NCBI RefSeq assembly: GCF_007743815.1
Contig: NZ_CP036265.1
Span: 4,967,823-5,031,822, forward strand
DNA from: Alienimonas californiensis
Lineage (GTDB): Bacteria; Planctomycetota; Planctomycetia; Planctomycetales; Planctomycetaceae
Direction of reading: 5' to 3'
DNA length: 64,000 nt
The notes beneath the pieces were generated by a model. That model did no database searches, was not told where the DNA came from, and worked only from the letters and a program-made list of their open reading frames with translations. Shown here piece after piece: positions 18,540-29,351 of this stretch (within the stretch, counting starts at the first letter, position 1; every line of letters starts with the position of its first letter). A program made the translations under genes and the position numbers.

Positions 18540-21935
<3,396 letters not shown>

Positions 21936-21977
21936 GGACCGGCGGAGTTTTTCAATTCCGACCCGGCCCGTCGCCGC

Positions 21978-22571
21978 TCACACCCGGTCGAGTTTGCTGT
22001 GGCGGCGGGGGCGGGGTTTGCGGGCCTCGCGCGACAGGCCGTAAACCTCCAGCCGGTGCCCTTCGACGCGGAAGCCGTGCTCCGCGGCGACGCGTTCCAG
22101 GATCGCGTCCAGTTCCGGGCTGCGGAACTCGATCAGCTCGCCCGTTTCCCGGCAGATCAGGTGATCGTGGTGCGGGTAGCCGTAGGAGTGCTCGTACAGA
22201 TCGCGGTCGTCCTGCCGGGCGATCTTGCGGATGAGCCCCGCCTCCTCCATCGCGGCCACGTGCCGGTAGACGCTGGACCGGCTGACCCGGCGCCCGTCGC
22301 TCTTTGCGGCGAGCCGCTCGGCGAGGGTCTCCACGTCGAAGTGCTCGTGATCGGCGAAGACTTCTTCCACCGTAATCCGCCGCTCCGGAGTGAGCCGCTG
22401 CCCGCGGGTGATGAGGAACTCGCGAAACTTTTCCGTCGGCGAGACGGCCACCGGCACCGGCGGCAGGTCGGTGCGACCGCGCGGATTCGGCGCCGCCTCC
22501 TCCTGCGACGCGGCGCGAGACCGCGCGCCGTCCGCGGAACTGGAATCAGAGTGGGGGCCGAGATGCGACAA
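21978..22571 (-). CDS. Fur family transcriptional regulator
   Basis: A 197-residue regulator: low-complexity N-terminus (about 1-45), winged helix (LTPERRITVEEVFADHEHFDVETL, SRSSVYRHVAAMEEAGLIRKI, about 60-118), and a metal-binding C-terminal domain with YPHHDHLICRETGELIEF. The His cluster matches the regulatory metal site of Fur/Zur/PerR. However, the usual CxxC after HHDH is a single Cys here and no second CxxC pair is found, so the structural zinc site seems absent. The metal specificity cannot be assigned. The only start giving the full frame is TTG at 22571; GTG codons near residue 40 are alternatives. It sits upstream of glnB on the same strand. Confidence 0.88.
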   Translation of the reverse strand: MSHLGPHSDSSSADGARSRAASQEEAAPNPRGRTDLPPVPVAVSPTEKFREFLITRGQRLTPERRITVEEVFADHEHFDVETLAERLAAKSDGRRVSRSSVYRHVAAMEEAGLIRKIARQDDRDLYEHSYGYPHHDHLICRETGELIEFRSPELDAILERVAAEHGFRVEGHRLEVYGLSREARKPRPRRHSKLDRV

Positions 22572-26599: not shown

Positions 26600-26625
26600 C
26601 CGTCCTCTTCAAGAGGGCGGCTAAC
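26595..26625. terminator. hairpin shared by two convergent genes, overlapping both stop codons
   Basis: gttagccgtcctct pairs with agagggcggctaac with one G-T wobble and a 3-base loop. The TAG of the serine hydrolase (26597-26599) and the TAG of the convergent BRCT gene (26621-26623) both lie inside the arms. It has no T-run; a bidirectional terminator role is inferred. Confidence 0.6.
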
Positions 26626-27952
26626 GCAGGTCGTTCGTCATTTTCAAGCGGGCGCGAGCCAGTTGCGCCCAGGGGCCGCGGTCGTCGTGGGCGAGGTAGG
26701 CCCGGTAATGCGGCTCCGCCCCCTCGTCGCCGAGGGCGTGCAGGCTTTCGGCAAGATGAAAGTGGGCCTCCGGCAGGTCGCCGTGGATCTCCAGCGCCGT
26801 GCGGAACGCGGCGGCGGCGGAGCGGTGTTCGCCCCCGCTGGCCCGCACGCAGCCGAGTTGCACCCAGGCTTCGAGGTACCGCGGGTCGTGCTCCGTGGCG
26901 GCCCGGTAGCGTTCGGCGGCGGCGTCCGGACGGCCGGTGCGGAACAAGGCGTCGGCGAGGTGGAAGTGGGCCTCCGGGTGCGTCGGTTCCTTCGCCAGAC
27001 AGGCCCGCAGGGCGGGCTCCGCGGCGGCGGGGTCGTCGGCGTCCAACCGCTCCACGCCCAGCCGCAGCCACTCGGCGGCCGAGCGACGGGCCGCCCGCCC
27101 GCCGTCCGGGTCCGGCAGGCGGAGCAGGGCGGGGGAGGGCGGTTCGTCGGGGGCGTCGCCGGTGCGATGCGGGTCGTCCGGGGCGAACTCCAGCACCCGC
27201 TGACCGGTCGCCGGCTCCCGCAGACCGGCGTCGTCGCGGATCAGCAACCGGCCGTCGCGGGCCAGCAGATCGAGCCGCCCTGCCGCGACCGCCTCTTCGC
27301 CGAACACCTCGGACAGCGCCGACAACCCCGCGGCGAGGTCCGCCTTCGACACCCCCGCCGCCAGCAGCTTGGCCAGGGTGCGGGTGCGGGCGACCTCGGC
27401 AAAGTCGAAGTAGGGCAGCCGGTGCACCGTCTTGACCGGGCGGATCAGGCCGTCCCGCGCCCAACTGCGGATGCGGCCTGGCGTGACGTCCAGCAGGCCG
27501 GAGAGCATCGCCGGCGTGTACAGCCGCCGCACCCCGGCTGCCAGATCGCCGCCCAAGGGAGAACTGAGGCCGGCGAGCCGCAGCCAGTCGCTCTCGGCGA
27601 GCAGCCGCACGGTCGCCTCGCCGGTCCGGTTCCACTCGGCGGCGTGTCGGAACTTCACCGTGGGGGCGCCGTCGTCCGCCAGCGGCCAGCCCTCCTCGCC
27701 CACGACCAGCAGCGTCGTGCCGCGGGTCAAATGTTCCGTGAACGTCCCGCCGAGGTCGTCCACCAGCCGGGCGGCCGCGGCGTGCGTCATGCTGGCCAGC
27801 GTGCCGGTGAAGGCGACGACCTCCCCGGCCAGAGGGGGCGGCTCCGCGGGCTCCGCCGACGGCGAGTCGACGGGTTCGTCCCGGCCCTCTTCCCCGTCGA
27901 CGTGCTCCGCCGCGGCGGCCGGTTCGGCGGGTGGGAGGGATACCGCGGGCAC
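26621..27952 (-). CDS. BRCT - MerR-type HTH - TPR fusion protein
   Basis: 443 residues with three recognisable parts. Residues about 41-126 look like a BRCT domain (GEVVAFTGTLASMTH, LVDDLGGTFTEHLTRGTTLLVVG). Residues about 143-215 look like a MerR-family DNA-binding domain (LYTPAMLSGLLDVTPGRIRSW, GLIRPVKTVHRLPYFDFAEVA). Residues about 292-438 contain at least three TPR-like repeats (EAHFHLADALFRTGRPDAAAERY, EAWVQLGCVRASGGEHRSAAAAF, EAHFHLAESLHALGD). BRCT domains bind phosphopeptides or DNA ends, MerR domains bind promoters, and TPRs bind proteins, so a DNA-linked regulatory scaffold is inferred. The start is GTG at 27952. It is divergent from glyA (115 bases). Confidence 0.85.
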   Translation of the reverse strand: MPAVSLPPAEPAAAAEHVDGEEGRDEPVDSPSAEPAEPPPLAGEVVAFTGTLASMTHAAAARLVDDLGGTFTEHLTRGTTLLVVGEEGWPLADDGAPTVKFRHAAEWNRTGEATVRLLAESDWLRLAGLSSPLGGDLAAGVRRLYTPAMLSGLLDVTPGRIRSWARDGLIRPVKTVHRLPYFDFAEVARTRTLAKLLAAGVSKADLAAGLSALSEVFGEEAVAAGRLDLLARDGRLLIRDDAGLREPATGQRVLEFAPDDPHRTGDAPDEPPSPALLRLPDPDGGRAARRSAAEWLRLGVERLDADDPAAAEPALRACLAKEPTHPEAHFHLADALFRTGRPDAAAERYRAATEHDPRYLEAWVQLGCVRASGGEHRSAAAAFRTALEIHGDLPEAHFHLAESLHALGDEGAEPHYRAYLAHDDRGPWAQLARARLKMTNDLR

Positions 27953-28067
27953 GGGGGAGCCGGGCGGGGGAGCGGGAGGGTGTGGCGGGCGGCCGCGTGT
28001 CGGACCGGGATTCTCGGCGGTAGTTTAGGCGTTCCACCCGCCCCGCGCGATCCTCACCGGCCCCCCG

Positions 28068-29351
28068 ATGTCCTCGTCCGCTCCTCACTCCGGCCTCCAG
28101 ACCGCCTCGCTGCCGGAGGCCGATCCCGAAGTCTTCGCCGCGATCGAGCGCGAACGCGGCCGGCAGGTCGACGGCCTCGAACTGATCGCCAGCGAGAACT
28201 ACACCAGCGCCGCGGTGATGCAGGCGCAGGGCTCCTGCCTGACGAACAAGTATGCCGAGGGCTACCCCGGCCGCCGCTACTACGGCGGGTGCGAATACGT
28301 CGACCAGATCGAAAACCTCGCCCGGGACCGGGCCAAGGAACTGTTCGGGGCGGAGCATGCCAACGTCCAGCCGCACGCCGGCAGCCAAGCGAACTTCGCC
28401 GCCTTCACCGCGATCCTGCAGCCGGGGGACACCTTCCTGGCGATGGACCTCGCCCACGGCGGGCACCTGACGCACGGCATGCACCTGAACGTCAGCGGGC
28501 AGTTCTTCAAGCCCGTGCACTACGGCGTGCGGCAGAGCGACCACCGGATCGACTTCGATCAGGTCGCCAAGCTGGCCCGGGAGCACAAGCCGAAGATGAT
28601 CGTCGCCGGCGCCAGCGCCTACCCGCGGGAGATCGAGCACGCCCGCTTCGCCGAGATCGCCCGGGAAGTCGGCGCCAGGTTGCTGGTCGACATGGCCCAC
28701 TACAGCGGGCTGGTCGCGGCGAAGTTGCACGACGACCCGGTCGCGGTCGCGGACGTCGTCACCAGCACGACGCACAAGACGCTCCGCGGCCCCCGCAGCG
28801 GCGTGATTCTCTGCCGGGAGGAACTGGCGAAGGCGATCGATCGGCAGGTGTTCCCCGGCAGTCAGGGCGGCCCGCTGATGCACGCGATCGCGGGCAAAGC
28901 GGTCTGTTTCAAGGAGGCTCTGCAACCGGAGTACAAGCAGTACGCCCAGCAGGTGATGGACAACGCCAAAGTCCTCGGCGAAGCCCTGGCGGCCGGCGGC
29001 GTGACGCTGGTGTCCGGCGGCACGGACAACCACCTCCTGCTCTGCGACGTCACCACCGTCGGGACCACCGGCAAGATCGCGGAGAAGGCCCTCGACGCCG
29101 CCGGGATCACCGTCAACAAGAACATGATCCCGTTCGACCCCCGCAAGCCGATGGACCCGTCCGGCATCCGCTTCGGCACCGCCGCCCTGACGACCCGCGG
29201 CATGAAACAGGACGAGATGAAGCGGGTGGCCGCGTGGATCCTCGAAGTGCTCTCCAATCCGGAGGACGAGGCCCTCTTGCAGCGCACCCACGAAGCCGTC
29301 ACCGAGTTCGCCCGCGGCTACCCGGTCCCGGGCGTCAGCGCGGCGGCGTGA
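28068..29351 (+). CDS. glyA: serine hydroxymethyltransferase
   Basis: 427 residues. The PLP enzyme interconverts serine and glycine while charging tetrahydrofolate with a one-carbon unit. Motifs: [81 protein letters not shown] with the PLP Lys, and [11 protein letters not shown]. Length and order match the family throughout. The ATG at 28068 begins MSSSAPHSG. Its last 17 bases overlap the convergent larE gene. Confidence 0.98.

Follow-up and report, generated by a model that had tools for sequence, protein, structure and literature searches.

What might a protein do that joins a BRCT domain, a MerR-type winged helix, and an array of TPR repeats in one chain? The question is raised by a gene of Alienimonas californiensis in the window analysed here, a stretch of 64,000 nucleotides from a genome of one contig (5.48 Mb). 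A sequence-only reading had described this gene as a three-part fusion that may bind phosphopeptides or DNA ends and link DNA integrity to transcription of a target in trans. The gene, the parts of its product, and its divergent neighbour are located as follows.

26621..27952, minus strand: gene for the 443-aa BRCT-MerR-hairpin-TPR protein, with a GTG start and a frame that is open throughout.
27575..27841, minus strand: BRCT domain, residues ~38-126 (Pfam, PDB profile, fold), with the FTG motif (T49-G50), K100, and E120.
27332..27526, minus strand: MerR-type winged helix, residues ~143-207 (Pfam, alignment, PDB profile).
27179..27289, minus strand: beta-hairpin segment, residues 222-258, with conserved R239, L244, G250-Q251, and F256.
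26639..27079, minus strand: TPR array, residues 292-438 (Pfam, model), most blocks with pLDDT >90.
27953..28067, no strand: short intergenic spacer that separates the gene from the divergently oriented glyA, in which no coherent operator was found.
28068..29351, plus strand: glyA (PF00464, E 8.5e-164), which encodes serine hydroxymethyltransferase and is the divergent neighbour.

The open reading frame lies exactly where it had been placed, and the presence of all three domains in one 443-residue protein was confirmed by Pfam calls that each exceed the cut-off. BRCT (PF00533) matches residues 38-108 with E 9e-5 and 23.0 bits (cut-off 21.3), MerR_1 (PF13411) residues 145-207 with E 2e-7 and 31.3 bits (cut-off 21.6), and TPR_16 matches from residue 296 with E 2e-13. 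The worry that the domains might be brought together by a frame error can be set aside, because the frame is open and the same architecture is found in 37 of 37 genomes of the same family. The closest named relative is Alienimonas chondri (83% identical). The true start codon is uncertain within the first 36 codons, residues 1-36 being poorly conserved and of low confidence in the model. AlphaFold models of the protein are middling (mean pLDDT 65-68); in that of the whole protein the TPR array is confident and residues 224-287 have low confidence. PADLOC returned weak matches only.

BRCT is the weakest of the three domains by sequence, and its identity was confirmed by profile and fold. A profile of 10 N-terminal sequences matches the BRCT domains of E. 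coli LigA (E 7e-6) and human RFC1 (E 2e-5). As the fold search with the whole protein was filled by TPR rows, the N-terminal part (residues 36-262) was folded alone. The BRCT part of this model has the order beta-alpha-beta-beta-alpha-beta-alpha, most of its blocks with pLDDT 77-91 and two at ~56. Structurally it comes closest to the BRCT parts of LigA (the integrative model 9a6z) and of RFC1 from yeast (7u1a), both with Z 11.4 and with an rmsd of 1.7 and 2.0 Å, respectively, over 79 residues. Profile and model thus agree on the BRCT domain that had been read at residues 41-126 and for which an HHpred search had been suggested. The 50 structural matches listed are taken to be BRCT proteins, in part by their titles; the titles of 9hu3 (phage ligase) and 9cq3 (NHEJ complex) are silent on BRCT. 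No MerR protein is among the structural matches listed for residues 36-262, which counts nothing against the MerR reading. One BRCT domain and no tandem pair is present, with the MerR part next in the chain at residue 143. In the alignment, T49 is kept in all 37 rows of the window's family and K100 in 32 of the 37. T49 occurs in none of 13 rows from Pirellulaceae and kin, where the BRCT domain has drifted (identity 0.35), and is missing from 4 of 12 Ku-linked BRCT forms, which are described below. Together with G50, these residues fit the general BRCT phosphate pocket (T/S-G and K). According to two published reports, the isolated RFC1 BRCT prefers 5'-phosphate DNA ends (Kd ~10 nM) and the 5' phosphate has little effect once this domain is docked on RFC (PMC9293009), and affinity for dsDNA is raised by the LigA BRCT (PMC10504179). 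The likeness to LigA and RFC1 comprises profile, fold, and the shared FTG motif, and for LigA also the lysine; unlike these two, the window protein has no ligase or clamp-loader parts, and its BRCT domain is fused to MerR and TPR.

The MerR part shows the family pattern RLYTPAML...IRxWxRxGLI...RLPYFDFxEV. For this part, the PDB search with the profile of 10 N-terminal sequences retrieved BldC (E 0.0017) and, weakly, GlnR (E 0.03) and TnrA (E 0.19), all MerR regulators without a ligand domain. Behind the wing, where MerR regulators have a long antiparallel coiled-coil helix for dimerisation, the model, a monomer of middling confidence here, places short helices at residues 203-217 and 219-223. 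The protein resembles these regulators in the winged-helix part (E 0.0017 to 0.19) but continues into the conserved hairpin and the TPR repeats. The hairpin, which the earlier reading had not mentioned, is also kept in the aligned MerR-TPR relatives. Within the window's family, the BRCT (identity 0.59-0.65) and MerR (0.63-0.68) domains are better conserved than the TPR array (0.51-0.54). That BRCT and MerR are conserved in this planctomycete family suggests that the protein makes use of both its DNA-facing parts.

How widely the architecture is shared was examined in two samples of planctomycete genomes. All 37 genomes of the window's family match at 1e-52 or better, four of them as two pieces of one ORF. 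Among 22 genomes from other families of the same class, the full architecture was found in five, which are all members of families f5 and f7 (those that bear names are Pirellulaceae and kin), and was absent from 17. In the second sample of 294 planctomycete genomes, 42 match at 1e-20, including 16 of 17 from the window's family; the exception is genome G316, which has no match at this threshold. The expectation that the three-domain order might be conserved across planctomycetes is thus borne out for the window's family, for f5 and f7, and for several uncultured lineages, but not for 17 of the 22 genomes from other families of the class. Some relatives lack the BRCT domain and are encoded by ORFs of 277-302 aa that start at MerR (L092-L095). 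Matches to residues 27-161 in ORFs of 1100-1200 aa from other families were rejected as architectural relatives; they are HEAT-BRCT proteins, as checked for two. In these two (1134-1156 aa; L185 36-3437 and L186 1945-5412), the HEAT repeats as well as the weak BRCT score below Pfam's cut-off.

The larger result is the linkage of this family to Ku and the existence of a Ku-free branch that holds the window gene. Ku grips broken DNA ends and is the end-binding protein of bacterial NHEJ, which is usually described as a system of two proteins, Ku and LigD. A plasmid search with one short (BRCT-less) relative first revealed Burkholderiales proteins annotated beside Ku. When the MerR-hairpin part alone was used, 33 plasmid records were retrieved, all from Burkholderiales, and in 32 of them, several being near-copies, a ku gene lies directly upstream on the same strand. 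The exception (H55) has a truncated ORF of 247 aa and no Ku within 3 kb. At 21 annotated loci (19 from Burkholderiales and two from Rhizobiales), no more than 15 nt separate the Ku stop from the partner start in 18 cases, and the genes overlap in nine. Such short gaps and overlaps are typical of translational coupling.

The same linkage exists in planctomycetes outside the window's class. In the second sample, Ku is encoded in 17 of 20 outside-class genomes that have the gene, compared with 18 of the 253 that lack it (Fisher p 1e-14, uncorrected for relatedness). These 20 genomes derive from 22 matches, two of which (G086, G128) were left out because only the TPR part matched. Ku is located upstream on the same contig and strand, at a distance of 0.3-3.4 kb, in 16 of the 17 Ku-bearing genomes (16/20 overall); G111, G300, and G314 carry the gene and lack Ku. 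Three genomes of the window's own family (G003, G021, G025) possess a second copy directly behind Ku in addition to the usual one. At some outside-class loci, a ligase-like ORF is situated between Ku and the gene. At L091 (3482-4363) this intervening ORF codes for a stand-alone ATP-dependent DNA ligase (PF01068 and PF04679); the ORFs at L090, L097, L103, and L105 resemble it by similarity only, and most of these five loci also have a LigD-like gene nearby.

Full-length relatives in Sinorhizobium and Pararhizobium were retrieved with a Ku-linked planctomycete protein as query. On S. meliloti pSymB, the order is Ku, homologue, hydrolase, and xth, as annotated in strain ml47. Over this region, strain 1021 shows 99.4% identity and has both frames open, with the homologue at 1490714-1491736 of NC_003078.1. 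In Pararhizobium, ligD precedes Ku in the same cluster. The homologues of both organisms retain BRCT and TPR. In the 361-aa S. meliloti protein, the family's own profile detects the BRCT domain (33.6 and 18.8 bits), and the wing, hairpin, and TPRs are also present; no match covers the recognition part of its HTH, and neither MerR nor BRCT is called by Pfam. The alpha/beta hydrolase and exonuclease III (xth) genes follow the Ku/BRCT-TPR pair on the same strand (L182 6085-7507, L183 4082-5510), and the whole cluster suggests a larger repair operon in Rhizobiales.

Ku without the gene is common, too. No match at 1e-20 was obtained in 18 of 35 outside-class Ku genomes, and in six of the nine Ku genomes of the window's family no copy lies beside Ku in the loci examined, where some contigs are short. 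The same holds for the loci examined in Cupriavidus (H79) and Gemmatirosa (H96). What emerges, very probably, is a family that in other bacteria resides in NHEJ operons immediately after ku, in many cases close to ligD, and that has the history outlined below; we use the working name Ku-operon MerR-TPR family. Because its members are Ku-operon genes in other bacteria, the link to DNA integrity that had been guessed from the BRCT domain now has independent support. A full-text literature search, judged by titles and abstract openings, retrieved no account of this family, although some key NHEJ papers lay outside its scope and the S. meliloti gene may be mentioned in them. This result fits the earlier statement that no regulator with the BRCT-MerR-TPR combination has been characterised. 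In the text of a published survey of bacterial NHEJ that examined the ku-ligD neighbourhood (PMC7719229), the words MerR, TPR, tetratricopeptide, and planctomycet do not occur.

The window copy stands apart from this setting. The genome of A. californiensis has no PF02735 (Ku) candidate and belongs to the 28 of 37 genomes in the window's family from which Ku is absent; its one match to an ATP-dependent ligase is of the N-M-C type, without LigD modules. The known systems nearest to it are the Ku-LigD operons of bacterial NHEJ: homologues in Beta- and Alphaproteobacteria and in many planctomycetes are found directly behind ku, often overlapping it, whereas the window copy lies beside glyA in a genome with neither Ku nor a ligase match of the LigD kind. 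In a tree of 81 rows, the 51 rows from the window's family and f5/f7 form one clade (SH-aLRT 97) that is nested among Ku-linked rows, while the Burkholderiales and the short planctomycete forms fall outside it. When Rhizobiales rows were added, the clade of the window gene again occupied one side of a branch, and on this tree the BRCT state has to change three times, for instance by a single gain and two losses. The trees are quick searches with SH-aLRT support only and were rooted on Burkholderiales by choice; L162 and L072 in the first tree and seven further rows in that with Rhizobiales were left out as partial sequences, near-copies, or long branches. According to these trees, one departure from the Ku operon is the simplest account. 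The window copy belongs to a clade of Planctomycetales and Pirellulales whose genes are found away from the Ku operon and mostly in Ku-less genomes; the two order names rest in part on the named members of each clade.

Around the gene in the window's family, glyA is the most constant element. Gene and glyA are oriented divergently in 22 of 30 loci of this family, with one locus counted per genome; of the eight others, L034 has too little upstream DNA to judge. In 17 wider loci of this family, glyA is the commonest neighbour, adjoining the gene in 12 and lying 5 kb away in one, followed by larE in seven and hisD in one; a beta-lactamase-like neighbour occurs in none. Little of what lies on the opposite side (genes for a beta-lactamase-like protein, hisD, threonine aldolase, Fur, and PII) is retained in these 17 loci. 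No glyA linkage was found in the loci of f5 and f7, and the tree suggests that this adjacency is old in the window's family, with several losses. Farther away in the window, at a distance of ~5-6 kb, glnD and genes for a PII-type and a Fur-type regulator (named by eye) stand in a row at 18540-22571; among the loci seen, only A. chondri shares this arrangement. NatA-like ABC ATPase genes that occur close to the gene in Rhodopirellula and Roseiconus (L008 4712-5446, L009 4873-5640) were dismissed as partners, being absent from most loci.

If the protein controlled transcription in trans, as had been proposed, its operator, with dyad symmetry as for MerR regulators, might be expected near the gene and glyA or upstream of ku. 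Palindromic and free motif EM was applied to 24 and 36 upstream regions and to a thinned set. The motifs scored above shuffled controls at every width (for a 20-base palindrome, 44.6 versus 27.6-31.0), where the controls had fewer starts (25 vs 60; 100 vs 300) and the upstream regions include some coding sequence. No coherent operator near the gene and glyA emerges from this search, because the consensus shifts with the width tried and the sites are scattered. A footprint of four rows from the same genus contains a conserved TATAAT-like block and no operator. For ku, a search that covered 13 ku upstream regions from loci with the partner, two from ligD, and one control without the partner (16 in all) yielded scores somewhat above controls and no coherent site. 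Scores above controls without a coherent site point neither way; in S. meliloti the HTH looks eroded inside the Ku operon, and transcriptional control in trans is a conjecture.

Taken as a whole, the gene likely represents an overlooked helper of DNA-break repair that has been kept in a planctomycete group mostly without Ku. For its mode of action we lean, with a confidence just short of even, toward an adaptor that binds DNA ends or nicks and descends from an NHEJ operon. The BRCT domain of the LigA/RFC1 type would hold a 5'-phosphorylated DNA end via T49-G50 and K100, the MerR winged helix would provide a second contact with the duplex, and the TPR superhelix would hold a protein client. In Ku operons this client could be Ku or LigD, made adjacent by coupled translation. 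Since there is no Ku in the window genome, the client there would have to be another protein, such as a ligase, a repair factor, or the transcription machinery, and the window protein would label or signal DNA breaks or nicks independently of Ku. Counting against the adaptor are the lack of Ku and of a LigD-type ligase match in the window genome, the many Ku genomes without the gene, the drifted BRCT of Pirellulaceae and kin, the loss of T49 from some Ku-linked forms, and the small effect of the 5' phosphate once the RFC1 BRCT is docked. The main alternative is a MerR-type transcription factor in which TPR replaces the ligand-binding domain and BRCT serves as a damage-sensing or partner-binding input; it would control the adjacent promoter, that of ku ancestrally and that of glyA in Planctomycetaceae. 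This alternative, which we consider possible and somewhat less probable than the adaptor, is favoured by the strong conservation of MerR in the window's family, where it is the best-kept domain with both helix and wing conserved, and by the divergent glyA. The regulators BldC, GlnR, and TnrA as nearest solved relatives of the MerR part point in the same direction, as do the upstream motif scores above those of shuffled controls. It fits less well with motif searches that gave no coherent operator at either site and with the lack of glyA linkage in f5/f7. The adaptor is preferred over a plain transcription factor because of the tight coupling to ku and because the HTH of S. meliloti, unmatched in its recognition part, appears to have decayed within the operon.

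A BRCT domain that reads phosphopeptides, as in BRCA1, would instead make the protein answer to protein phosphorylation. T49, G50, and K100 fit the phosphate pocket of BRCT domains in general, and three phosphopeptide complexes of S. pombe Rad4 BRCT are among the top six structural matches. Yet the domain is single, its best matches in sequence and structure are the DNA-type domains of LigA and RFC1, and T49 is lost in Pirellulaceae and kin, which makes this function unlikely; phosphopeptide binding as such, which had been suggested, is not supported. Even less probable, with a slight chance at best, is a relic that drift alone has preserved after the loss of Ku and that has no specific function. 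The absence of Ku from most genomes of the family and the drifted BRCT of Pirellulaceae and kin would agree with such a fate, but a gene matched in every genome of the family, whose BRCT and MerR domains are ~59-68% identical across genera, does not look abandoned, and G003, G021, and G025 keep the usual copy beside the Ku-linked one. The adaptor can also be cast more specifically as an undescribed bacterial NHEJ factor that is made with Ku, binds the end beside it, and recruits the ligase, the version of Planctomycetales and Pirellulales being a Ku-independent sensor of ends or nicks kept by nearly every sampled genome of these families. This fuller proposal is tentative and, taken with all its parts, less likely than not.

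Eukaryotic NHEJ employs several BRCT-containing factors, namely ligase IV, Pol mu and lambda, and TdT, which work beside Ku. By analogy, the family also places a BRCT protein beside Ku, and NHEJ complexes are among the weak fold matches; unlike the eukaryotic factors, the window protein has no polymerase or ligase, and its architecture is unrelated. If the proposal is true, it would be a bacterial counterpart of these proteins. A further gene directly behind ku in two phyla, often with a ligase-type BRCT, would change the two-protein picture of bacterial NHEJ, and the planctomycete branch, in which such a factor would live on without Ku, raises the question of its role at DNA ends. A physical union of the two partners may exist in a single genome, Burkholderia ambifaria B21-006. 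On its plasmid NZ_CP086300.1 (L162), one open frame, which spans the record start and was read from one side, contains the C-terminal part of Ku and MerR-TPR and is perhaps a natural Ku fusion or a frameshift.
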